Source: Paramecium tetraurelia (Eukaryota; Ciliophora; Oligohymenophorea; Peniculida; Parameciidae). From it: DNA of 64,000 nt. The stretch is taken from NCBI RefSeq assembly GCF_000165425.1, contig NW_001799499.1, positions 370,854-434,853 on the forward strand, in the 5' to 3' direction. This document shows positions 1 through 64,000 of the stretch, piece by piece; within the stretch, counting starts at the first letter, position 1, and every line of letters begins with the position of its first letter. The translations under genes and the position numbers were made by a program. The notes beneath the pieces were generated by a model. The model was not told where the DNA came from. It was given only the letters and a program-made list of their open reading frames with translations, and did not search any database.

Positions 1-1043
1 TAATATTGCTGGCTAGTAAAACATTTGTGTAAGTTGTGAAAAATATATTTTTGAAAAGAAAGTCACACTTAATTGCCAAAACAAATTTAATCATAATTAC
101 CATTCCACTTGTTTAGCTAATATAATGAAATAATAGTTGGCTAATTAGTGTATTAAATTCTAATGCTTGTGCAAAAGTTAAATCAACAATGGATAAATCT
201 CTAGATAAAAAATATTAGAATTAGATGTTTACATAAACAGGTTAATGTTAAATTAGTTATATTACTTAAAAACCCATTACCAAAATATTAAATAATGTGC
301 TAATAAGGATTGCGAATTTTTTTGGATCTATAAATAACAACAAAAATAAATTAAATCGCGTTCTAACTCTCCTTTGAAGACATATAAAATTACCTATGTT
401 AATTATTGTCCTGATTGTAGATTTTTATGATTTCATGTAATTAATTTATAATACTGAAATATTATTTTTTCAACAATTTTCAGCCATTATATATCTCCTT
501 ACCTTTTTTGAAAACATCTATTATTTAGTTATAGATTTATTTATTTTAAAAAAAAAATGACTGAGTAATATAATATTTAAATTTTGATTAACTTTAATAT
601 TTAACAATTAAATTGATGTATTATTTCAATATTTGCAGAATAATTATGCATTTTTCTGTCATATTCTTTGAAATAAAGAAAAGATAGTTTTGCTTTGAAA
701 AATCTATTCAATCAATTTGATTAATTTCAATAATTATTTTATTTTTTAGTGTTTTTGGGAAATTTCTATTTTTATAATTTAATTAAATAATATTAATTTT
801 TATAATCACAATCAACATATTATTTATATTTTTATTTTGTATTTATTTAAGCTATAGAATTTTATTTGATAAATTTATGCAAACCAGAGCATTATATAAA
901 TACAAATTACTTATAAGGATATTAAGTAATTCTAATGATTGAAAAACAAGATCACTTTTATATCACTCTATAGAATAGTAATAATATTAGATGTGCAATT
1001 ATTTAAAATAATGTTATGAATTTATTGTATACTTTATATAATA
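1..1043. other. AT-rich stretch without recognised gene
   Basis: I read both strands and found no frame free of TGA with protein-like composition over a useful length. There are A and T runs and no telomeric G-rich or C-rich repeat. It lies downstream of the minus-strand SLC44 gene. A stretch this long without a gene is unusual for a macronuclear genome this compact, so it may be subtelomeric, or it may hold a decayed gene I did not resolve. Confidence 0.4.
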
Positions 1044-3052
1044 TCATTGATCTTCCAAGAACTTCTCTAGTTTTGGTGGACAGCACAAAGCAACTCCTTT
1101 TCCATTTTATTTTTCCATTTCTTCATCCATTACAAAGACAATCAATATTGCATCACATGCAACTCCATAGATTGACATGAATAGTGATCCAACAACTAAA
1201 CCTATGGCACCACATAAAAGTGAAGGTGCTTCTGGATAAGTTACATTATATTTGAACTTTTCAGTTCTTGTTATCACAATATAACAAAATAGACCTGTTA
1301 ACAAGGCAATAAAACCTCTTCCTAAAGCTATAAATATTTCTCCAAATCCTCCCACTGTTGCAAATCTAAGTGGGTTTCTTGCAATCAAGAAAATTGCCTC
1401 TTTGGCTGAATGGAAGAAACCTTTGCCTGTCATATTACTAACGACATAAGCATTTTTGTTTATATATTAGACACATTTCTCGAAACACCACATACAACAC
1501 ATCAAGCATTTAAATAAGTATTCAAAGAACTTGTTTTTCTTAATTAATTCTTCTTGTTATTTATAAAGGAAGGCTAACCAAATTCTAATGAATTCAATGA
1601 TGGCTAAAATTAATGATCCAAAAGCAACTGTTCCTAAATGATATCTAAAGAATCTTCCAATAGCAGTTGGCAAAGGAATAGGACCTCCTTCTTAAGCTCT
1701 TGGTCCTTATTAGAAATACCAAATGCAGACAGAACCAGCAATAATAAATTCAACTGATGCTATGATAAATGAAGAGTTCCATAGTAAACCAAATAAGTGA
1801 ATGTTGGCGAATATTTTTTAATTTTAAGTAAATGAAAACTATCCAAAAGGCAATTGTTTAGGTTTGCTTGTAGTTTCCCCAGAACTGTATAAATACAATG
1901 CAACAACGAACCAATAGATGAAATAAAGAAGCATGATGAAAAAGGTTACAAATGGAAGGACAACAACTGTAAAATTGGCTTGAACATAATCGCAGGCTGT
2001 CTATTAAATAATATATATAAAATCTACCTCAAGTATGGCAATTGCAAGCCGAATTCTCGAATACATACAACACACAACAAGTAATATCAATCCTGCTAAA
2101 GAAAATAATGTAATTCCTATATATAGATAGTTTTTAGGATTAACGTTCTCTGCTTATGCTTGTTCTTAAAGAGTTTGGGCATCGATTTCAGCTTGAGCTG
2201 AAGCTGGCAATTTTGAAGGATCAGTCAATGCATAGTAGTACCCAGTGGTATAGATTCCTCCAGCTATTAACACACTGAATAACAATAAGAGCAGCGTCCA
2301 TATCACGCATCCAGCCAATGTTTCAATAAGGAACAAAAATATGAATCCAAGTACTAAAGATATACCAATGGAACCGAAAATAAGCCATTTAGTTGTGATC
2401 ATATCATTTGATACTTTTTCCATAGTTTCAACATCAATTTTATCTTTTACTGTTTCATAATATTATTTGGTGGTTGGTAAACACACAGTTTTCATAACTT
2501 AAATAAATTTTATTTATGTACATAATTCAGTATTGTAAATTACTACGACCTCTTCTGGATTAGTACTCAACATATTTTATTTACAACTCTTAACAATGGA
2601 ATTTGGTTAACACTTTAATTCACTTGGTAATTTTGAGTTTGTTTTGGCTTCTTCCAAATGAGATATTTTAGTATGTCTGGCTGATGGTGCAGGCTCACTC
2701 TCCTCTTCTACAGACTAGATTATAACAATTACATGGACATTCAGATACGCAGGTTGTCACATAAAGATACTTTGGATTAGTTGGGTTAGCAAAATAAATG
2801 TAGGGATAATCAGCTACATCCTCATCAACTCCACACGCCCGATCTTAATTATTATAAAATTTTACGATCTGGATCATAAGGTTAGGCAATTCTATGAGGA
2901 TCTCCATTTTTGAAAGCGTAACCACTTATGAAAAACATACCGAAAGTAAAGACAATAAAAAGCAATAGGCAAAAAATATCAGTGCATTCTCTATCGACGA
3001 CTGGTCCATTTCTTAATTTTGGATCTGTTCCTTCACCCTTTTCACTAGACAT
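1044..3052 (-). CDS. Choline transporter-like protein, SLC44/CTL family
   Basis: Multi-pass membrane protein of the SLC44 family, expected to carry choline or related solutes across plasma or organelle membranes. The N-terminus reads MSSEKGEGTDPKLRNGP, followed by a first membrane helix (CTDIFCLLLFIVFTFGM) and then a G-x-x-x-x-N-G-D-P element, as in CTL proteins. A Cys-rich loop follows (RACGVDED..., TTCVSECPCN). The C-terminal half carries the family signature CCMWCFEKCVQYINKNAYVV, then SAKEAIFLIARNP, then two more helices. The last residues before TGA are LEKFLEDQ. Several Q codons are TAA/TAG, and short introns interrupt the frame, one of them near 2500-2560. The start is the ATG at 3052; an upstream in-frame ATG at 3091 is less likely. 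Intron borders are only approximate. Confidence 0.85.
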
Positions 3053-3279
3053 TAAATAATTATTGGCAAATAAAAAATATATTAATATCAAATGAGTTTT
3101 TGAAATACTAAGTAGATAATATACTTGAATCTAATTATATGTCTGAATCAGACTATATGATTGAATTTAACTTTATGTCATAATATTCAAGCAATGAATA
3201 ATCAATCATCTTAACTTACAATATTTTCTAGAATGAATTTTAAATTTTTTGTTTTAAAACCTACTTTTTTTGATACTTC

Positions 3280-3990
3280 TGATAAACAGCAGTAAAGAAA
3301 AAAGAGACTTAAGGAGTTTTCTAATTCCTTAATCAGAAAATGATCCAAAGTATATTGCTGATAATTTAATTGCAAAATAAATAGTCTATGAACTAAAGAA
3401 TTTGGGACAATTTAAATTCTCATATTTAATAAATGGCCATAATCAAACTCAATTAGAATAACATATGATAAATATCTATAAAATTCTAGATATGATAAAT
3501 CAAATTAAAAACAAATTTTTCATCAATATAAATCCTATTGAAATTATTTTAAGACGGCCAGACTGAATTTAGAATAATTTTCCTCATTTATTTTATCTTG
3601 TTAGTTCCTACTAAATCAAAATTCAAAAGAGAATGACCACTATTTATTATATATTCTAATTTTGAATTGAGAATTTTGGATGCTTGTTTCATTAAAGATT
3701 TCAAAGGTGATAATCGATCATTATAAATATAAATTCAGAATATAGTATTACATCGATCTGAATGAGAAAAAAATATTCGAACTAAAAAACTAAAGAATTT
3801 TCAAAAGATGAAATTGAAAAATTCATAATAATATCCATATTTGAAGAAAGGGTTAGAAATAAAATCCAAAATTAAACCCATCCTCTTCATCTATAAATAA
3901 ATCAAAATCCTAGAAAAAGATGAACTATAGGATGAAAAACTTATAAAGGTTTTATTAAACATATAAAAAAATTGATAAATTATAAAAGGC
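3280..3990 (+). pseudogene. Broken coding fragments, unknown family
   Basis: Protein-like segments appear on the plus strand in different frames: a lysine/asparagine-rich piece containing ELKNLGQFKFSYLINGHNQ at about 3390-3460, a piece with ELRILDACFIKDFKGDNR at about 3665-3720, and a piece with TKEFSKDEIEKFIIISIFEE at about 3785-3850. I could not join them with GT...AG introns of normal size, and TGA codons lie between them. The best explanation is a decayed gene, but a real gene with unresolved introns is possible. I do not recognise the family. Confidence 0.35.
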
Positions 3991-4264
3991 TATTAATTAG
4001 AATAGATTCTTTCTCCTGTAGATTTTTCACCATAGAATTGATTTAATATTTTGATTTGATTGTGAAATTCTATGAATGATGAAAAAAAGATGTGAAAAGT
4101 TGAAACAAATAGTAAAAGATTAATAAAGGTGATGAAATTGAATTAGAATAATTATAAACTTATAATAATCATTTAAATATGTTAATATTTTTAGTTCTGA
4201 ATAATGTTATATATTGTGAATATATATATATATTATTATTATAATTATTATTATATATAATTGG

Positions 4265-4903
4265 ATGTTGGATTCTGTTTTAACAAGACATTTTAAATTT
4301 AATGATCATAAATATGATTCTAGGAAGGAGACAATGTATATTACAAAAAGAAGGAATTCTCATAATAATAGTTTTGATTTATAATCTAGTAGAGATTAAT
4401 CATATGGATATTTCAATCAATAATTAAACTACGTACATTATTTAGTATGCTAAGTGTGCAGTAGATTATTATGATGTTCCAATACCTAAATATACTCAAA
4501 AGGGATTTTCAAGTCCTGTTAAGAAACGTAAGTATATCTCCGAAAAAGAAGTAATTCATATCATTTCCATTCATAACCAAAACAAAATTGTTAAATACTT
4601 AAATTTGAAGGTTATATTTCAAGAGAATCACCTTTTAGGAATTGGATAGGAACTATGAATAAATCTTAAGCATCAAAAATATCACAAATTTAACGAATTC
4701 ATGTAATTTATATAAATATAATATAGAATTAAGTAAGAATTATAGAAAAGAACTAAAAAAGTGAATCATATCAACTTTAAGAATATTTAAATGCTGTTAA
4801 TCATAGAATACAATGGAATTCACTCCCTAAAGTATTCAATTATCAAAGATGTTAAACTCCAGATATTTTAAAAGGAGCAAGGGAAAGAATTAAAAAGTTC
4901 TGA
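4265..4903 (+). pseudogene. Unknown basic protein, frameshifted copy
   Basis: The paralogue at 12671-13307 is open throughout; this copy is not. It starts MLDSVLTRHFKFNDHKYDSR and follows the intact copy through a 22-nt intron near 4434 as far as SSPVKKRK. At about 4532-4545 it has two extra bases (an extra t, and a g before the A run) that throw it out of frame. The downstream part (YHFHSQPKQNCQILKFEGYI, then the ending ILRGARERIKKF) is still readable in the shifted frame, which suggests recent damage or a sequencing error. I do not recognise the protein; it is basic, without membrane segments or known motifs. Confidence 0.6.
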
Positions 4904-5076
4904 AATTAACTAATCACTCTATTTACATTGTATTTTATATAAGTACTTATTATATTTTCTAAATAATACAATTAAATATTACAAAACCTAATAGAAATTG
5001 TTTCTTATATTATTCTATTCAAAAACATATTAAGAACAATTATTTTTCTTATTAATTATCCCCATTATTTTATATA

Positions 5077-5694
5077 ATGTAGAAAATATTCAAAATAAAA
5101 GAGCCCTAAGTCAACCCTTAAGTAAAATTGTTTTATTAATAAATTATAGAGAGCCAATGAATTTCAAATCCTTTTTTTGAGAATATAATAAGAAATTGAT
5201 TAAAATAATGTTTTATATAATTTATCTCCTTTAATGGAAAATGAATAAGTAAATTACTAATTCTGGAGATTTGAATTTAGAGGCCAAGGAAATTTTGAAG
5301 GAAAATGCATTAGTGGTCTTAACTTTTTATTGATATTAATAGGTGTCTTAAAGTTGTAATCAGATCATCCAGTATCTGCTCCAGAGTTTTACTTTGATCC
5401 AATAACAACAGAATAGAGAAATGAAATCCTATAGCACTTAAATATTTATGGAGGTAATATAGTTTATAATCATATGAAGATCACACTTTATGCATTCCAT
5501 TATTCACTTATTGGAAGAAAACTACTTCTGAATATGAAATATTGTAAGCCATTGAACACATTTTTCACAATCCAAATTTTTAAGAAGGTGCTGCTCCTGC
5601 TAACCCGGGTTTCGAACACGAAACCGAAGAGAAAAAAAATTAGATTTAAAGAAGATAGGCAAAATATTTACCAGATTTTTAGAAGGAATAATGA
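5077..5694 (+). CDS. E2 ubiquitin-conjugating-like (UBC fold) protein, short copy
   Basis: Three introns (5122-5149, 5316-5342, 5454-5479) join four exons into an open frame of 178 residues. The order matches the UBC fold: N-terminal helix (RANEFQILFLRIQQEID), a W-containing strand (FWRFEFRGQGNFEGKC), the segment LKLQSDHPVSAPEFYFD corresponding to the E2 'YP..PP..F' stretch, then HLNIYGG (in place of HPN) and TLCIPLF holding the probable catalytic Cys, then a C-terminal helix ending KYLPDFQKEQ. It would pass ubiquitin or a ubiquitin-like protein from E1 to a target, but HPN is altered to HLN. Relative to the copy at 11725-12463 it lacks the first exon, so the start (MQKIFKIKEP) looks improvised. 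Confidence 0.6.
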
Positions 5695-5735
5695 GTAATA
5701 TTAAAAAGAATTATTAATAATTATTATTTTCATCG

Positions 5736-6039
5736 CTCCATAAGGAGCTAATTTTTAAATAAAGTACTTTTATAATATTTCTTAAATCAAATTAGGCTGA
5801 TGAAAATAAATATATAATTGTAGTTGCATCTAAATTAATAATTAATTTTTATTGCTTTGATTATTATTCTATTTCAAATCAGATATTATCTCAACTTACT
5901 TTATATATCAATTTAGATATCTTAATTGATAGCAATATTTTCTAAATAATTTTGAAGTTTAAGGCATTTATTTTTAAAGAGAATTTAATTAATATTTCAA
6001 ATTTTAATTCCAATTAAAAAATTTTAAACAAAAAAAAAC
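5736..6039. other. AT-rich spacer
   Basis: There is no gene that I can support here. The right end holds the A run at 6031-6038, which on the minus strand is the T-run terminator of the tRNA gene. Confidence 0.5.
6031..6038 (-). terminator. RNA polymerase III terminator of tRNA-Tyr
   Basis: Eight A's on the plus strand make eight T's on the minus strand, directly after the 3' end of the tRNA. This is the usual Pol III termination signal. Confidence 0.8.
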
Positions 6040-6125
6040 TCCGAAAAGGCGGATTTGAACCACCGACCTGGGGATAACTGGATTAACACTACAGTCCCTC
6101 GCTCTACCAACTGAGCTATTTTCGG
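6040..6125 (-). tRNA. tRNA-Tyr (GUA) with an intron of about 13 nt
   Basis: On the minus strand the acceptor halves CCGAAAA and TTTTCGG pair, followed by an A discriminator. An A box (TAGCTCAGTTGG) and a B box (GGTTCAAATCC) are present. The anticodon loop reads CTGTAG, giving anticodon GTA, and the anticodon stem pairs GGGA with TCCC once about 13 bases after position 37 are removed, the canonical intron position for eukaryotic tRNA-Tyr. The anticodon is not TTA or CTA, so this is not one of the ciliate glutamine suppressor tRNAs. One anticodon-stem pair (A-C) is mismatched. Confidence 0.92.
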
Positions 6126-6350
6126 ATGTTAGAAAATAGGAAGTTATTCCACATATATATACCTTAACAAAATGATGAGAGCAAAGACACTATAATATAC
6201 TTGAATTAAATAATGTTAAGATGGATGTTCAATCTTTATCTTTCATTTAATATAATTGAATTAATATAGAATTAACCTTCCTTTTTAACTTTTAGTAGAT
6301 TATTATAATTGAAGATTTTAATTATTTGAAGTTTGTTTCATATATTTTTA

Positions 6351-8148
6351 TCAATATCTTTTATAGATTTGAAGTATTTTTTTTTCTAATTCTCCATCAT
6401 CTTTCATCAATTATTCAAATTTCTCTTTTTCATATTTCCAAACTTCTTTTTAATTTTACCTGTCTTTAATTTTCTCTTCTTTAAGTTCCTTCTCTAGTTT
6501 AGATAATATCTAAAGAATAAAAATTCAAATACTGATTTTTCAGATATGCCCTCATATAATCGATCGTTTCTTTGTTTTTATATTTTTTGTTTTAAAAATA
6601 CTATTTAATCATCATAAGAACTTTCAACTGAATCTAAGATATTCCTTGTTAGAATATTTTACTGCCTTCTGGCTTACCTGTGATCATATTTTTCATCAAT
6701 TATTTATCTTTTCTCTAACTCAAAAACTATTCGGTGACTAACAACAAAATAGAATATACATTTTTTTTAGATAATTCAATTTTTCATCTCTTAATTTATG
6801 TTGCATAAACAAATGAACATTCTCAAACTAATCTTTAATTAAATCATTCTATTTTATTTTAGTACTTGTTCTTGAGTTAACATCTTATTTTTATACATTT
6901 TGAATTTATTTAATTTATTGAAAATTTTTCAATTAATCTTTTAAGAAATTCCTATATTAATTTTTTTGTTCATTGATATTTTCCATATTCTCAGTAGAAG
7001 GTTTTGGTTTCATTTTTTTAAAAGATTCTTTAATATTTTTCATTTAAATGTCTATTTATTCATCAGAAGCAGGGAAATTTTAATGATTTTCTTCATGTAA
7101 TATTTTTTCTTATAGAACTTTTAAGATCTCCTCTTTTTATTTTTCTAGAACATATTTTATTTTAATCGGATCATTATCATCCAATTGCTTGATATCTTTT
7201 TCATCAAATTATTATAAAAATTCATAATCTACTTCATCTTTATTTTAAGTTTCAAAATCCAAAGAATATTATGAATCTTATGAAGACTTTGTATTTTCTG
7301 AGTATTTTTCTTTTTATTTTGTAAATGACTATTATTTTTTTGGTTAAGACCTTGGTTCGTAAGGTAATTTTTTTTGAAACTTTGGGTCTTAATCTGTTGG
7401 CTTTTTTAATGAATGAGATCTAATAGGTCTTTTTTATCTTTATTGATTACTTCCTTATTAGTTTTTCAATTAAGATGACTTTCTATCATCTTTTTTTTTA
7501 GATTATTGCTCACATGATTGATTATTTCGTTATTTTGCATTTTTATTAATTTAAAATTAATTTGATTAGATACTCGACTTTTATAAGTGATCATTATCTT
7601 CTTCTTAATAGGTTTATTTTTCATCTTGAGAATTATAGAAATACTCTAAACATCTAAGTTAATTTTTATGAATTTTACTCAGAGGGTGTAGAATTTTAAC
7701 TATTTACTAAATAATCTTGTTAACTGCTGATACCGGAATTTAATGCTCTATCCTTAAAAAGTTTTGATAACTCATGCAATATTTATAAAAAATTTGATAA
7801 ATGCTATAAGTCTCCTTTAACTATTTATGAACCGCGTATATGTGCTAAATTACAATTCAAAACTTAATTCGACTATGAGTAATATTTATATTTATACTAA
7901 AAACTCAATAAGCGCTTATATTTTTTTTCCTGATGAAATTGTTTCATTTTTAATATTCTCTATTTCATCTTCTAAGGATGGAAAAAGAATTTAAAAAATA
8001 GTGCAATAATTTTCCTCATTTATAAGCTATTATCTAATAGTATGAACCTAATTATAATTTACATATTAATTTCATTTTGAGGTTCCAAATTTAAGTTGTA
8101 AACAATTTCTTTGTATATATCAATCATTTATGAAACCTTATGCTTCAT
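6351..8148 (-). CDS. CEP95-like coiled-coil protein
   Basis: About 550 residues in roughly seven exons. The N-terminus (MKHKVSQMIDIYKEIVYNLN) begins a helical domain that includes FQILFPSLEDEIENI and then NLAHIRGSQIVKGDLQHLSN. The 'L.HI.G..IV.GD....NLL' pattern is what I recall from the N-terminal calponin-homology-like domain of the centrosomal protein CEP95. A low-complexity Lys/Gln/Ser stretch follows, then a coiled coil (HKLRDEKLNYLKK, FLKQKIQKQRNDRLYEG) ending QIYKRY. The role is probably at the basal body or centrosome, by analogy only. Introns of 20-29 nt were placed by frame; the boundaries do not sum to an exact multiple of three, so at least one is off. Confidence 0.6.
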
Positions 8149-8431
8149 TTATTGTAAGTTTTGAATATCAACTAGATTTTAAAATAATTATTAATAAGAA
8201 TAAAGGGCTAGATGTAGTAATATTAATGTATCTTTTCAAACTTCAATTAAAGATCACAAAGAATTGGAAGTATTAGAGCTAATTGCTTACTTATTCTTCA
8301 AAGCCTTTCTTTTTTACATAATTTTGATGGAACTTGAAGATATTGAAAAGCAAAACTCTCAAAAGAAAAAACAAACAAAGATTGTTAACAAAATTGTTCT
8401 ATTGAGATTATAACCCTTTCAAAATATTATT
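8149..8431. other. Spacer between two minus-strand genes
   Basis: The spacer lies between the Snu13 stop and the CEP95-like start. A plus-strand frame containing KDHKELEVLELIAYLFFKAF stays open for about 90 codons, but it has no clear start or stop and runs into the antisense of Snu13. I do not call it a gene. Confidence 0.4.
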
Positions 8432-8867
8432 TCAAATAAATAATTAATCAATTAGGTCTTTCATTTCAATAATCTATGTTCTCAATTAAGAGCCTTCACT
8501 TTATACAATAGAGGCTGCAACAACTGGTCTGCTGATACCACAAGCTCTACCTAAACTTGCTTAGGTGGACACAAAACAATATGAAACATTCTAATTTAAA
8601 TTCCTTTAATTACTTTCTCTTCGCATTTAATCGGTATGTTTGCTACTATTTCTATAGGATCACAATCAGCTGCCAAAATCACTAATTCGCAAATGCCTTT
8701 ATCAAGACTAATTTAGATGCTTAATCATACTTTTTTAAGACTTCATTAGCTCCTTTTTTTAATTGTTTATAATTTAAAGCCTAACGAAGAAGGTCTAATA
8801 TTTTGGTCTATAGTTTTGCATCTGCAATTGGAGAAGGTTTAATTCTTGGGGCTTCTACTTTCTACAT
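8432..8867 (-). CDS. SNU13: Snu13 / NHP2L1 (15.5K), L7Ae-family RNA-binding protein
   Basis: This protein binds kink-turns in U4 snRNA and box C/D snoRNAs, nucleating tri-snRNP and snoRNP assembly in the nucleus and nucleolus. Two 23-nt introns are removed, giving 129 residues, matching the family length (128 in human). Signature stretches are ALNYKQLKKGANEVLK, ELVILAADCDPIEIVANIP, NVSYCFVSTQASLGRACGIS and RPVVAAS. The ending (EMKDLIDQLFI) fits the family. The start is MQKVEAPRIKPS at 8867. The neighbour downstream on the same strand is the CEP95-like gene, 283 bases away. This is one of the surest calls in the window. Confidence 0.95.
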
Positions 8868-8892
8868 ATAAATAATTTAGTATTAAAATAAT

Positions 8893-11184
8893 TCATAATT
8901 AAAATAATTCAAATTAGTGAATTTCAGAAAGTTTAGAATGTTCACTAAATTTAGAAGTAAACCTTAGTAAATATTCTAATGTCCATTAATCAAATCTTTA
9001 TTTTAAGTAGTTAATAGAGGATGGCATTAAAATTATCTAACATGTGGAAGCACCCTGATCTATACTTTCTAAATCCTTAAAAAATAGTGATTCTTATTAT
9101 ATAGAGCTTTGTTGGTCGGATATTATTTCACATTTTTAGAAATAATCTTAAACAATTTGGATAAGTATTTCTTATATCGAATAATCGCTCATCTAATTGA
9201 CTGTATTAATCTAGAAATTCAATTTGAGTAAAATAATCAAAATTTCCTCCTTTTTTGATAAATTATCATTTAATATATATTCACTTTTAATTGATTATGA
9301 TTATATAAATACTTGTAATAAGCTGCTGCCATTTATCTAATTTTTGAATTACCTTTATGGGTTTCTTTTTCGGTTACAACAGTATTTGATTCAATGAATA
9401 ACTTAGGAGCATTCATTTCATTGTTGCAGTCATATCGACTCCAATTAACAGGTAGTAACCCTTTTGTTTCCTCATGCGAATCAATCGAACTGTCTGAATA
9501 TTCGATATGATCATTATCTCCTTCCTTTAATAAAGGAGCATCTTATGTTTTAAAATAATAATTCGGCGATTTGCTCATTGTAAAGTAATTAGGTTAATTA
9601 ATTTTCATAAATGAAGCATTCAATTATTTAGTTAAATTGAAGCAACAAGTATATAAGTTTTCAGGTTTATATATTTATTTACGATATTAATATAACTTAT
9701 TTCTGGATTTTTGAAAATATTCAGACAAAATGTCCTTATTATTTTTCAGTATAAGTTTCCATAAACAACCATAAGATTTAGGTTTGCAACTAATGTAAAA
9801 CTAGCTATATTCCAACAACAAAAAACACATTTAGATTTGATTTTATTGCATGCAAATATCAAAAACGCTTAAATTATCTATTCCTGTAACTTAAGTAATT
9901 TCAAAAGGGTGCGAGCATCTGTCATATATATCAAGTTATCCTTTATACTACAATGCAAATTAAACTGCAGAGATAAATCCACGTTTAACTCCAATATGAA
10001 ATGAACTAAAACCTTAAGCGTTTAGCATCAGAGGACAAGCACTAATTATCTTTTGAAGACTTTACCCATAATATAAAAGAAGAGCAGCATATTTTTCTGG
10101 AAATTAAAAGCTTGGCCACTTGTTCATTAAGTAATGTAAACCTGTATTCCCATCTTTATCCATTTCATTTGGATCAGTTCCATGTTATAAGAAGCCTTGC
10201 ATCAAGTTTATCTGTTATTTAATTAATGATATTATAACTAGATTTTACTAGAATAAAGTTATTTTTACTTAATTTAGATTAACATTTAAAGATAATAAAC
10301 ATTTAACACTTTAAAATTTATCCGAAAACAATGCTACTTAGATAGGAGTCTATTTCTGATAATTTTATGAATTTTTATCAACAACGTTACTGCAACCCAA
10401 AATAACCCCTAAATGCTATTTTAAAGCAGCTTGATGTATAATAGTATTTCCATTCTCATCAGTATTTTAATAATTAAAATAATCCCCCAGAAAATGTTTT
10501 ATCATATTTTAGAATGTTGCTTAATGCTCTTTCTATAGCCAATTCTAAAATTATTCCAACTATTGTCCATTTATCCTATCGTTCCAACCCAAATAAATAA
10601 CCCAATCAATACTGAACTCTTTTAATTAAGAGTAGTATTTTAATTCATATATTGGATTTCCTGTAAGCAACAAAATTTAAATTGAATGTTTCAGTAGCTA
10701 AGGAAATAGGTGTACCTGATTATATTCAATATTCAATTAAATTAATTCATCTGGCATTTATGGCAAAATACTGAGATAATTATTTGAAATATCTAAATTC
10801 TATAATTGGGGATGAAATTTATTAAACTAAAAATCACATCAGAAACATTACATTAAATGGTAAAATTTTAAGATAATTATTTGATATATCTAATATTCTT
10901 AAATTTTATAATATCTTAAATTCATCACCATATTATCGAATGCAATTATGCGACAAATCTAATTTAATGATCCATATATTATTCAACTTTTCTTTATTAA
11001 TCTCACTTAAACCCTAGTTACTTAAATCAAGTTATTCAATCCGTTTACAAAATACAATCTGCTTTTTATTTAATTAAGGAGAGCTTAATATCACCTCTAA
11101 ATCTTTATTTTTTTAATTCAAGTGCTATTTTTTTAATGGGTTTTCATTAAAAATTGCTAGCTTAGTGCAATTCATTTCACTCAT
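8893..11184 (-). CDS. Leucine-rich-repeat and ankyrin-repeat protein with novel C-terminus
   Basis: It starts MSEMNCTKLAIFNENPLK. LRR units follow: IEQLDLSNQGLSEIN, IIKLDLSHNCIRQY, LRILDISNNYLKILP and LQNLDISNNYLSILP, with an LRR cap (LLLTGNPIYELKYYSQLKEF). Then come ankyrin-like units: TDENGNTIIHQAALKQH, TPIQVALFSDKFQSVKCLLS and DPNEMDKDGNTGLHYLMNKW. The rest, about 350 residues, matches no family I know; it includes LPVNWSRYDCNNEMNAPKLF and ends SEIHQFELFQL. A 25-nt intron (GTAATG...TTTTTAG) falls between two LRRs. Such proteins are scaffolds; no enzymatic motif is seen. Exon joins after about 9300 are uncertain, except for a 25-nt intron near 9100-9125 that restores the frame. Confidence 0.75.
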
Positions 11185-11687
11185 AAATATTATATTTTAT
11201 ATTATTAATTAAAATCTCATCTTTCTCAACTATAATCTATAATCAGTTGGCAATTTAATTAGAAACTGCATTTAAAATAATTAGATGATGTTCTTAAAGA
11301 AGACAATTGAAAATATAATGACTAAATAAGGTTATAAAAATAAACATATAATTAATCTAACTTCTAAAAATAGTATATCGCAAAATATCCGCCCCATATA
11401 TACTTTCAAAAATAATATGGATATTAAGTGCTAAATATAAAACAATATATTATAAAAACCCTTAATAAATTAATTTAATAATTTGTTAACTTATTCATAA
11501 ATACTAAGGTATAAGACTTTAATCAAGATATACTATGGCTGAAATATGTATAAAAAACTTTTGGCAATATAAATACACTTGATATAATGATTATTAATAT
11601 CATAATTTTTTTGAAAAAATGTTTAAAAGTTCATCAAAATAGCTGCAATCTAAAGTTCGATTACCTATTAGTTTCTTAAAGTGTGAA
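11185..11687. other. AT-rich intergenic region
   Basis: This spacer separates the start of the LRR/ankyrin gene from the end of the right duplication arm. No RNA gene or coding segment is recognised. Confidence 0.45.
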
Positions 11688-11724
11688 GAAAATAATAATT
11701 ATTAATAATTCTTTTTAATATTAC

Positions 11725-12463
11725 TCATTATGCCTTCTAAAAATCTGGTAAATATTTTGCCTATCTTCTTTAAATCTAATTTTTTTGCTCTTCGGTTTAG
11801 GATGCGAAATTTGGGTTAGCAGGAGCATCACCTTCTTAAAAATTTGGATTGTGAAAAATGTGTTCAATGGCTTACAATATTTCATATTCAGAAGTAGTTT
11901 TCTTCCAATAACTGAATAATGGAATGCATAAAGTGTGATCTTTATATGATTATAAACTATATTACCTCCATAAATATTTAAGTGCTATAGGACCTCATAT
12001 TTCTATTCTATGAATATTGAATCAAAGTAGAACACTGGAGGAGATACTGGATGATCTGATTACAACTTTAAGACACCTATTAATATCAATAAAAGTTAAG
12101 ACCACTAATGCATTTTCCTTCAAAATTTCCTTGGCCACTAAATTCAAATCTCCAGAATTAGTAATTTACTTATTCATTTTCCATTTAAGGAGATAAATTA
12201 TACAAAACATCATCTTATTCAATATCTTACTATACTCTCTAAAATAGGTTTTCAAATTCATTGGCTCTCTATAATTTATTAATAAAACAATTTTACTTAA
12301 GGGTTGACTTAGGGCTCTTGTTTGACTTTTATATTGCTATTTACGTTCTGCCTTTCATCTAATACAAATAGAATAGAATATTACTTGAGTTTTAAGAAGG
12401 GGGTTATTGGATTGTTGATATTATCTTAATCTTTGGATTGTTCTTTGGGAAATTAGGGTCCAT
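11725..12463 (-). CDS. E2 ubiquitin-conjugating-like (UBC fold) protein, full copy
   Basis: Four introns (26, 28, 26 and 26 nt; the first at 12359-12384) leave 633 coding bases, 210 residues and a TGA stop. The N-terminus, MDPNFPKNNPKIKIISTIQQ, is absent from the left-arm copy. The core has a helix (RANEFENLFQRVQQDIE), FWRFEFSGQGNFEGKC, the segment LKLQSDHPVSPPVFYFD, HLNIYGG and then TLCIPLF with the likely catalytic Cys, and a C-terminal helix (EYEILQAIEHIFHNPNF). The 'PP.F' element is better preserved here than in the left copy. The HLN-to-Cys spacing is close to that of ordinary E2s; HPN is changed to HLN, so it could be an active but divergent E2 or an inactive variant. Confidence 0.65.
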
Positions 12464-12670
12464 CCCTTATCTATCATTCAAAATAATATCTTTGATATGC
12501 AATAAATAGGGGGATTATTAATAAGAAAAATAATTGTTCTTAATATGTTTTTGAATAGAATAATATAAGAAACAATTTCTATTAGGTCCCGTAATAACAA
12601 ATTGTAACATTCAGAAAATATAATAAGTACTTATATATAAATACAATGTAAATAGAGTGATTAGTTAATT

Positions 12671-13307
12671 TCAGAACTTTTTAATTCTTTCCCTTGCTCC
12701 TCTTAAAATATCTGGAGTTTAACATTTTTGATAATTGAATACTTTAGGGAGTGAATTCCATTGGATTCTATGATTAACAGCATTTAAATATTCTTAAAGT
12801 TGATATGATTCACTTTTTTAATCCTTTTCTATAATTCTCACACAATTCTATATCACATTTATATAAATTACATGAATTCGTTAAATTTGTGATATTTTTG
12901 ATGCTTAAGATTTATTCATAGTTCCTATCCAATTCCTAAAAGGTGATTCTCTTGAAATATAACCTTCAAATTTAAGTATTTAACAATTTTGTTTTGGTTA
13001 TGAATGGAAATGATATGAATTACTTCTTTTTGGAGATTACTTACGTTTCTTAACAGGACTTGAAAATCTCTTTTGAGTATATTTAGGTATTGGAACATCA
13101 TAATAATCTACTGCACACTTAGCATACTAAATAATGTACGTAGTTTAATTATTGATTGAAATATCCATATGATTAATCTCTACTAGATTATAAATCAAAA
13201 CTATTATTATGAGAATTCCTTCTTTTTGTAATATACATTGTCTCCTTCCTAGAATCATATTTATGATCATTAAATTTAAAATGTCTTGTTAAAACAGAAT
13301 CCAACAT
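12671..13307 (-). CDS. Unknown basic protein, intact copy
   Basis: Two introns (13118-13139, 22 nt; one of 24 nt near 12850) leave 591 coding bases, 196 residues plus stop. It starts MLDSVLTRHFKFNDHKYDSR and contains YYDVPIPKYTQKRFSSPVKK and ISRESPFRNWIGTMNKS. It ends ILRGARERIKKF. It is rich in Lys, Arg, Ser and Gln, with no membrane segment or known motif. The proline-directed SP sites look like phosphorylation targets, an inference only. An ATT microsatellite lies just upstream of the start. An upstream in-frame ATG inside that repeat would add an Ile run and is less likely. Confidence 0.6.
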
Positions 13308-13312
13308 CCAAT

Positions 13313-13362
<50 letters not shown>

Positions 13363-13374
13363 TATATATATATA
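13313..13374. repeat. TAA/AT microsatellite
   Basis: About 15 tandem trinucleotide units (ata/aat) are followed by TA dinucleotides, directly upstream of the intact unknown gene. The left arm has a shorter, more degenerate version at about 4218-4258. Confidence 0.9.
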
Positions 13375-13530
13375 AACATACTTAAATGATTATTATAAGT
13401 TTATAATTACTCTAATCCAATTTCATCACTTTTATTCATCTTTACTATTTTTTTCAACTTTTCACTTTTTTTTTTCATCATTTATACAATTACACAATCA
13501 AATCAAAATATCAAATCAATTTTATGGTGA

Positions 13531-13949
13531 CAAATCTATATCAATATATAGGTCAGTCCATGAGCCCTAACTTTTTATTACCTTATCTAAATTATAGGAA
13601 GGATAATTTAATCTAAAAATAATTTTCATTTTCTGTTCTTCATCTATAAAAGAGAGTTAAAAAGTAATATTTGTGGATTGGTTGAATGTTTGATGAATCT
13701 TAAAACCTAATACACCTAAAACTACTCGTGCATTTCCCTACTAAACTTTTTATGAATCATAAGAATTAGTATTTTACAGAATTATTTTCTATAATGGAGA
13801 AATTATCACAATAGCTGTCATTCTACTCAATCTTCTTTAAATGTTAGAGCTAACTTTAATACATTATTTTCATTTTTTCATAAAAAATTAATAATAATTT
13901 AATTTGCTATTAATTTTAATAAGTGATTCATTTAAACTGAAAAAGAATT
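13531..13949. other. Spacer between TDP1 stop and right duplication arm
   Basis: The stretch is AT-rich and I recognise no gene in it on either strand. Confidence 0.4.
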
Positions 13950-15541
13950 TCATATTTATTGTTCATAGTAAACTTCGCTAATCCAAGGCTAATCAGTTTT
14001 CTCATATTTATCGGGAGGAAATTTAAAAGATAGTTATTCAATAATTGATTATTTTAATTTCGCTGAATCCTTTTTTGGAGGATATAAAACACCTAATTCA
14101 GTATTTGATATAAAAAGTTGAGTAGCATTCTTCTCTAACCTTCCCCAAGCAGCCTAACTTAAATTATGACTTCCAATATAAATTGATGTTTTATCATCTA
14201 TTTTTTCATCTATTCCAGTTATTATCATCACCTTTAGATGTGGAATATTGCCAGCATGCCAATAATAATAATTAGAACCTTGATATCTATGGAAAATATT
14301 TTTTGGAAATTTTGGGTTGTCATATTATTACTTTCTAAGAAATAAAGGATTTGCATACTCTGGCCCAGCAGAGGTTTAATTTTAAATATAATCAGAAGTT
14401 GGATATATTAATTTTAAGATAGATTTCTCTTCTTATTAATTAAATAGCATTTGAGCAATTGATTTATTATTTTATTCTATTTTTTAGGATTATTTAATTT
14501 ATTATCCAGAACAACATTGTTAAACAAAATCAACATAATTAACATCTAACTGGCCAATACTTGTAGTTTAGTATGCTATACTAACTTATTTAGGGATTTC
14601 AAAATCACTACTTTTAAGTTCTGAATTTATAACAGATTAAATTCTCATCATTCCATATTTATTCATCTGATTTCCAGTGAATCTTCCAGGAATTGATGTA
14701 ATCAACCTAATATTAATGTTTTGAAAGTCGTAATCATTATATTTTATCTTAAGAAGATCTTCAAACTTATGAGAACTTGGAAGAATATTATCTAAAAATT
14801 CCTTCAAACCTACCTTAAATTCTTTTGATACTTCATCTAATTCACTATTCCCTATTTAAAAATCTTATATCCACATTGCTTATGACCAAACTGTCCAATC
14901 TCCAACATGTAAATTTTAACTCCCAATTACAATTCTAATAAACTTTGGAAATTTCAATATCCAAATTTTTGGATGAAATGACCCTCCAAAAGTTATAGAA
15001 CTTAATTTCGAAGGTTTAATCACAGTCCAATTTGGGTGACCATTAAATTCTTCAATAATTTCTAGTTTTTTGTCATTATTATCATTATCATTAATAATAA
15101 ATAATTTGACTCCTGATAAAACTAAGGGTTTAAGCAGATGATCCTCAAAACCGTAGCAAGTCATCAAAGCAGCTTCTAAAGTAATTTTAGGCTTTTCTTT
15201 TTATACTAAATTTTATTAATCATTTTCATACCATCAGAGTAAGCATTCTCTTGTATAATATTTATGAATGATAATATATGCGATTATTTTTCTTCTTTAG
15301 GATATTAAGATAATTGATTTAAGCAAAACTTACCAACTGGAAAGCAAAGCTTAATTTTTTCATCAACTTATTTTACTTCATCTCCTTCATTTTTTTATTA
15401 TTCTTGCTTCTCTTATTTTACGTCCTCTAGTCTCTTTTAATTTTCTAAGTATAACTATTTTTAAAGAGAATTAACATTTATGTAAGAGGAATTAATTTCC
15501 TCTTATTCTTCGGATAGTTCCTATAGAGTTCTTTTTTTCAT
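13950..15541 (-). CDS. TDP1: Tyrosyl-DNA phosphodiesterase 1
   Basis: This nuclear repair enzyme removes topoisomerase I peptides from DNA 3' ends. One 26-nt intron leaves 1566 coding bases (521 residues). Both phospholipase-D-type motifs are present. The first is FHPKIWILKF followed by IVIGSQNLHVGDW, giving the first His-Lys pair and Asn. The second is HLKVMIITG followed by SIYIGSHNLSQAAWG, matching the family's NLS.AAWG ending. The N-terminal 110 residues are Gln/Glu/Lys-rich and probably disordered, as is usual for TDP1. It ends ISEVYYEQQI. The intron (GTATGAAAATG...ATTTAG) lies just before the catalytic domain. Start at the ATG at 15541. Confidence 0.93.
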
Positions 15542-62300: not shown

Positions 62301-64000
62301 TTACTTTTTCCATTTAACCTTACTTATTAGTTATCCAACCTTCCTTCTTTTTTGCTTCAGATGAAATATTATTTTGAACAAGCTTTCTTGAAATTACTTT
62401 ACATCCTTACTATTATTCATTTATTTCATCTCCAAATATCATTTATTTATCTTAAATATAAGGCTTTCTGATTAATTTTCGCTCTTATTTTCCTGTATTT
62501 TCATTTATAATAAGAACTTCCTCCTCTATAAATTATTCTGGTTCAGAAAAACTCACCAATCTAGTTAATTTACCTTTCTCAACTTTCCACCCTTCCTTTT
62601 ATTATGATTAAATTGGGGAGACATTATCTATTATTCTTCTTGATAACACTTACTTTCCCTCACTATCAATTTCCTATAAATTGTCACCGAACTTAAGATT
62701 TTTTTAATTTGGAGACAAGGGACGTCGTATTATTTTTCTTTCAAGTTATTTGGTTTCCTTATTCATAACTAATATTTCTTCTTCTATGTATTTAGATGGC
62801 TCTGCATCAGAAATTACTTATTCTAATTGACCATCTTATTTTTACTACCAACCTTATTAACTTAGGATATCTGAAGAAAACTAATTTTAAATAATTCTTC
62901 TGGCAATAATTTTGTTACCATCCTTTCCTAATTCGTTTAAGCATTCTCCATAATTTACTTCTTCATCAATTTGATAAACTGGTTTCCGAATTAATTTACG
63001 CTCTTGTTTGCCTGTTTTTGGGTTTTATTATTATTATTTCTTCTTCAACATATTGCTCAGGCTCTTCTTATGAAATTATCTTTTCTAAAGTACCATTTTA
63101 TCCTTTTTGCCAATCCTTTTAGACTTAATTAAATGATTAAGAATTATCAACTATTTTTCTAGATAAAATTCTATTTCCATCCTTATCAACTTCATTTAAG
63201 TTATTACCCATTTATTAATTTTCTTTTGTCAAAGGTCTCCTAACTAATTTTCTTTGTATTCCATTTTCTCCATAACAAAGAACTTCCTCCTCAACATATT
63301 TAGTAGGTTCATTCTAAGCTAATTAAATTTCCATCTGTCCTTATTTTGATTACCAATCTTTCATTTAATCCATAGATTATTCATTAGAAACTATCCTTCT
63401 AGCAACCACTTTTCTAGTGCCATCACCTTCTTGAAGATTTTCTCCAATTTCACCTACTTCTGATTGAGTCAAAGGTCTTCTGATTAATTTCCTTTCTTGT
63501 TTCTAAGTTTTCGGATTTATTATGATAATTTCTTCTTCAATATATGCTTCAGGTTCTTCCTGTGAAACTATTTTCTCTAATTATCCATTATTCAATTAAA
63601 CCCAGGTTGAATCAACTGGTTTATTATTTGATACAATCTTTCTTGAGACTACTTTATTTCCATTTAAATCTTATTCTATCACAGCTCCTGTTTATAATTT
63701 ATTATCTTAAGGTAAGAAAGGTCTTCTAATTAGTTTTCTTTAAACAACTCCATCTTCACCTTAAACTAATATCTCTTCTTCAACATATTTAACAGGTTCT
63801 GGTTGAAATTTGATTTCCATATTTCCTTCATTATTTTTGATCCAACCTTGTTATTTCAAGGCTTAATTTGATTGATCATTTTAAACAATTTTCCTTGAAA
63901 TTACTTATTTACCATTTCCTAAATCTTCTTCTAAGTTTTATCCCATCTATAAATTATCTATTTCTTCATTATTTAAGGTTTTCTTACAGAATTCAAATTT
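59373..64000 (-). CDS. Very large repeat protein, cut by window edge
   Basis: The 3' end is in the window: a 28-nt intron (GTAAATC...CATAAG) leads to SVALQQKEKISQQFKKMGSY and TGA at 59373; upstream lie Pro/Gln/Ser-rich stretches. From about 61,950 to the window edge the protein is a ladder of about 80-residue units, about eight or more visible, e.g. YVEEEILVQGEDGVVQRKLI followed by RRP, then KVVSRKIVSNNK and a W-containing turn. Consensus: EP-x-x-Y-(V/I)-EEE-(I/V), R-K-L-(I/V)-RRP, G-x-K-V-V-(S/A)-R-(K/R)-IV. More degenerate copies continue to about 61,100 (LEEEILIQNPQTKKIERRLQ). At least 1,500 residues are in the window. I know no named family; a cortical or cytoskeletal structural protein is a guess from the repetition only. 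Confidence 0.75.

Follow-up and report, generated by a model that had tools for sequence, protein, structure and literature searches.

An inverted duplication of a two-gene module in Paramecium tetraurelia whose lesioned arm lies at the ancestral position

For small-scale duplicates in yeast, the ancestral copy has been told from the derived one by synteny, and in the portion of that study drawn on here the derived copy is the faster evolving of the two (PMC3190396). Inverted duplications are described at Drosophila inversion breakpoints, where the excerpts cited here invoke a staggered-break model (PMC7584159, PMC3355041), and long inverted gene pairs are reported from C. elegans, again as represented in an excerpt (PMC1803023). 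Among the titles listed by a literature search, none was of a paper on the locus described below, which does not imply its absence from print.

We analyzed a window of 64,000 nucleotides (C188:370854-434853), reading its genes under genetic code 6, and searched a genome of 69 Mb in 231 contigs. Near the contig end, the window carries a short direct repeat (62981-63088 and 63474-63580, 78% identical).

Self-comparison of the window returned one long inverted pair, 4019-5752 against 11667-13538, which is 93-94% identical and consists of two blocks: 4019-5070 against 13538-12504 (94.2% over 1053, E=0) and 5099-5752 against 12319-11667 (93.1% over 654, E=0). This bears out the inverted duplication of a two-gene module proposed in a sequence-only reading of the same DNA, the limits of which (4036-5735 and 11688-13530) were roughly right, the true ones being slightly wider. 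The arms are separated by 5.9 kb with other genes inside. The arms mismatch at 109 of 1716 aligned sites and have different flanks, so a simple assembly duplicate is improbable. Introns and spacers are common to both arms, which upholds the view that the event was a DNA-level copy and rejects a retrocopy; as for the microsatellite, also said to be shared, its region is present in both arms but the repeat make-up differs. The main features are given below; models of genes 1 and 2, with introns of 22-28 bases, were built from sequence alone by comparison with a single copy of the module on contig C3.

4019-5752, plus strand: left arm, at the ancestral position, with neighbors as for the single C3 copy
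11667-13538, minus strand: right arm, the derived inverted copy, between an ankyrin-repeat gene and a Tdp1-like gene
3270-4093, plus strand: upstream gene (extent of the C3 match), its tail entering the left arm and copied in the right arm
4265-4658, plus strand: left gene 1, with ATG at 4265, intron 4433-4454 and premature TGA at 4656-4658
12671-13307, minus strand: right gene 1, of 204 codons plus stop, with intron 13139-13118
5077-5694, plus strand: left gene 2, with UBC domain complete, exon 1 lost, and introns 5122-5149, 5316-5342 and 5454-5479
11725-12463, minus strand: right gene 2, E2-like, of five exons, with introns 12384-12359, 12296-12269, 12102-12077 and 11965-11940
6039-6126, minus strand: tRNA gene used as synteny anchor, adjoining the left arm and also the C3 module

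Searching the genome with the module yielded at least five matches, those listed corresponding to the two arms and the one C3 copy (about C3:476374-478009). This copy resides in a block of about 20 kb (C3:470080-489800) that is collinear with the window, and it is flanked by the same upstream gene and the same tRNA gene as the left arm. The collinear features comprise a gene at 1006-3092, the upstream gene, gene 1, gene 2 and the tRNA gene, as well as the genes at 8421-11215 and those from 15525 onward. Within the genes at 8421-11215 there are ankyrin repeats (E 3e-12), along with a putative Snu13-like gene and putative leucine-rich repeats. The C3 block contains no match to gene A (6339-8229), to the right-arm site, or to the Tdp1-like gene (Tyr-DNA_phospho, E 1.3e-59). 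Because the C3 module lies at the place of the left arm, this arm is the ancestral one and the other is derived; the ancestral position of the module is thus that of the arm with the lesions. In view of the divergence and of the history of Paramecium genomes, we read the C3 block as the probable partner left by the last whole-genome duplication, and blocks on C177 and C69 as probable partners from an older one. For the tRNA gene, ARAGORN gives no amino acid and an anticodon 'gtag'; besides the copy next to the C3 module, stretches 94-97% identical to it occur on C215 (two), C228 and C158.

The duplication seems to be more recent than the split from C3. The upstream gene, a single long open frame on C3, has lost its frame in the window through frameshifts and stops, and its tail in the left arm differs from C3 by six gaps (1, 3, 26, 22, 7 and 12 bases), all six of which recur in the right arm, where there is one extra. 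As these gaps are common to both arms and the C3 frame is open, the copying postdates the breakage of the gene, and hence the split from C3, provided that the tail was not rewritten by conversion. Consistently, arm-to-arm dS is low (0.03 for gene 1 and 0.10 for gene 2) compared with dS to C3 (1.2-1.5).

The two copies of gene 1 have changed at different rates. With C3 as outgroup, over 199 codons, the lesioned stretch being masked and codons past the left TGA being counted, the arms differ in gene 1 at 11 sites, of which 10 changed in the right arm, none in the left and one is undecided (10:0, two-sided p 0.002); seven of the right-arm substitutions alter an amino acid and three are silent. 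The asymmetry sets gene 1 apart from gene 2 (Fisher p 0.003), in which 13 changes fall to the right arm, 15 to the left and 11 are undecided, with one left change (codon 2, to be set aside) and two undecided ones lying in the unalignable start of the protein. In both arms, dN/dS of gene 1 to C3 is 0.07, pointing to strong long-term constraint on the predicted protein. Taking spacer and introns as the reference rate (11 of 263 sites changed), about 10 amino-acid changes would be expected in left gene 1 without selection (15 and 20 with two other noncoding rates), against none observed (P about 4e-5, taking the lowest of the three rates), which indicates that left gene 1 was constrained for most of the time since the duplication. 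Silent sites alone do not show constraint (2.4 changes expected in the left arm, P 0.09), and the difference of three silent changes in the right arm to none in the left is within chance; there are few changes in all, so the counts are small. Thus, the sequence-only reading, which called the right arm intact and saw the damaged copy in the left one, is right about the left lesions, but the left arm is the ancestral locus and all 10 polarized changes in gene 1 are on the right. No Pfam family was recognized in gene 1 (best E 0.084, for the C3 protein), nor in the unspliced right frame 12671-13435, and the genome search found relatives of gene 1 only in the arms and on C3.

The two-base insertion reported in left gene 1 is present as a net +2 in a block starting at 4524 and is most simply explained by two single-base insertions within about 8 bases. 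The broken frame fits poorly with the absence of changes in left gene 1 if the lesion is old, real and not bypassed; most simply, it would be recent, and it may be an assembly error.

The second gene is E2-like, as had been suggested. Its spliced products match UQ_con with 39.6 bits in the right arm and 33.7 in the left, above the cut-off of 27, and with 16.1 on C3, below it (E 4.9e-10, 3.2e-8 and 0.0084, respectively), and the best PDB matches of the right and C3 products are both E2s (E 6.7e-4 and 4.2e-4). A Cys of the right product is aligned with the ICL cysteine of 2aak, which we take to be the catalytic one, and the left and C3 products have Cys in the same column; all three would thereby possess the putative catalytic Cys expected of an E2. 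HPN is an E2 motif; at its place the alignment has HLN in both arms and HPC on C3. When the right arm was searched in Pfam as unspliced single frames, no E2 was recognized, and one of these frames, 13098-13502, gave 11 weak Pfam matches, all below cut-offs (the best two at E about 0.0006). The reported loss of exon 1 from left gene 2 is confirmed and extends to the adjoining intron; the lost exon encodes a tail outside the UBC domain, and an alternative in-frame ATG lies at 5077. In both arms, one gene 2 intron begins with GTC (or GTG) and another ends with AAG, and the claim of an intact right arm depends on these non-consensus splice sites in models built against C3. Arm-to-arm dN/dS of gene 2 is 0.91, and the amino-acid changes number 10 on the right and 13 on the left, where about 9, 13 or 18 would be expected without selection, depending on the rate. 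No clear purifying selection is visible in gene 2 of either arm, though weak selection may act on it. Statements on the function of these genes, here and below, are predictions.

The absence of derived substitutions from left gene 1, downstream of the lesion included, would also be expected if this gene were undamaged, the inserted bases being spliced out within a new intron. A 20-base GTA..AG stretch at 4532 indeed covers both inserted bases and has a length that keeps the frame; among 4000 simulated lesions, 245 yield a comparable stretch of 18-34 bases. However, when any GT..AG is allowed, 823 of 4000 offer one; the candidate ends with AAG behind a purine run, and there are no GTA..TAG or GT..TAG solutions. 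According to the part of a Paramecium intron study considered here, 77.4% and 69.8% of introns in two classes match GTA..TAG (PMC5663052), so that other intron ends occur, as a minority. We regard a new intron as unlikely; if it were real, intronization would be in progress in the ancestral copy, with the derived and C3 copies serving as exonic references. A different doubt concerns the age of the arms, which could date from before the split from C3 and have been kept alike by gene conversion, C3 having lost the right arm and the Tdp1-like gene. Identity between the arms is very uneven: the longest identical run, of 259 bases and ending at left 4502, was reached in none of 5000 shuffles (longest run 175), and just upstream of it the arms differ by 12%. 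Furthermore, both the Tdp1-like gene and gene A are absent from C3, and among 12 local alignments designed to detect remnants, each with 60 shuffles, some scores were borderline. Aligned with the right arm, the C3 interval that matches its site shows no clear remnant (score 38, equalled or exceeded in 4 of 60 shuffles), and the same interval aligned with the C3 module scored 30 (38 of 60 as high); the C3 gap scored 38 against the Tdp1 region (1 of 60), possibly a faint Tdp1 remnant. For the region upstream of gene 1, compared between C3 and the left arm, 5 of 60 shuffles scored as high, for a gene A remnant on C3, 29 of 60, and for junctions on C177 and C69, from 11 to 59 of 60. Against such an old duplication stand the tail gaps shared six of six by the arms, with the frame open on C3, and the content of the identical run, which is mostly gene 1 coding sequence (exon 1, the intron and part of exon 2, with about 20 bases upstream) and is partly explicable by selection. 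Local gene conversion may account for the remainder, and, given the patchy identity, may have blurred both age and polarity; an origin of the arms before the split nonetheless seems improbable to us.

That the arms bound a segment and run in opposite directions recalls an inversion with staggered breaks, whose ends, when filled in, would have left one module at each breakpoint. The arrangement of two genes fits this: the Tdp1-like gene and gene A stand tail to tail on C177 (gap about 0.2 kb) and C69 (gap about 2.0 kb), whereas in the window gene A adjoins the left arm, its orientation to the Tdp1-like gene being flipped. The C3 genes matching 8421-11215, however, keep the window orientation relative to both flanks, so no inversion of this segment took place in the window lineage once it had split from C3; as the arms appear younger than that split, such an inversion is contradicted as their origin, and we give it slightly less weight still than an old duplication. 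Gene A alone may have been inverted. It lies about 6 kb from the Tdp1-like gene (13959-15540) in the window, where the two are neighbors at C177:205-209k and C69:114-120k, and this arrangement in the window is a separate small rearrangement. Inverted arms could also yield hairpin transcripts, as the sequence-only reading suggested by way of speculation, or antisense ones, and either might supply a small-RNA pathway; in one P. tetraurelia sample of serotype 51A, as far as the cited portion of the report goes, 117 small-RNA clusters (about 5% of 2435) lie in pseudogenes (PMC6735861). But both copies are read in gene sense, double-stranded RNA would need read-through or antisense transcription, and a read-through hairpin is unlikely because the arms lie 5.9 kb apart with several genes between them. 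A role of the locus in small-RNA production is, in our estimate, the least probable of these alternatives.

Collectively, we favor, with a probability of roughly 0.8, a small-scale segmental duplication that postdates the split from C3, in which the left arm is ancestral and the copies subsequently evolved asymmetrically. The paralogous blocks of the window and C3 would have diverged, and the upstream gene would have broken in the window lineage. An inverted copy of about 1.8 kb, comprising the tail of the broken gene, gene 1 and gene 2, would then have arisen some 6 kb downstream, where the ankyrin-repeat gene and the Tdp1-like gene flank it; inverted template switching in the course of break repair is the likeliest route. 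Left gene 1 would have stayed under purifying selection, acquiring its net +2 lesion recently, while right gene 1 would have drifted under weaker constraint; gene 2 would have been near-neutral in both arms, with the left one losing exon 1. A mobile element was rejected, as the matches listed by the genome search placed the module in the arms and on C3 alone; a target-site duplication is not evident by eye at the arm flanks, viewed without an empty site for comparison. A gene cut by insertion of the right arm was likewise rejected: the 117-codon frame 13516-13869 (minus strand), which lies between the Tdp1-like gene and the right arm and enters the latter, matched only itself in the genome, and had no Pfam match at E 1 and no PDB match better than E 0.56.

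The locus is an ordinary small-scale duplication that has undergone ordinary duplicate-gene evolution. Its value is that the ancestral position, the relative age and the rate of each copy can be read from a paralogous block in the same genome, and that the copy which looks broken appears to have been maintained by selection over most of its history. A damaged arm should therefore not be equated with the copy.

As in the parts of the yeast study available here (PMC3190396), changes in gene 1 accrue in the derived copy; unlike the duplicates described there, the slow, ancestral copy is the one with a frame lesion, a difference resting on one locus and small counts. The products of gene 2 resemble ubiquitin-conjugating enzymes in that both arms score above the UQ_con cut-off and that a Cys corresponds to the one of 2aak, but differ in the replacement of HPN by HLN (arms) or HPC (C3) and in the C3 copy falling below the cut-off. 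With the C. elegans pairs, as excerpted (PMC1803023), the locus shares a long inverted repeat containing genes and intergenic DNA; in contrast to those pairs, its arms differ at 109 of 1716 sites, are 5.9 kb apart and show no visible upkeep over their whole length. Finally, as at the Drosophila breakpoints in the excerpts cited (PMC7584159, PMC3355041), single-copy DNA has come to lie, as inverted duplicates, at both ends of a segment and one copy is lesioned, but here the intervening genes have the same orientation as on C3.
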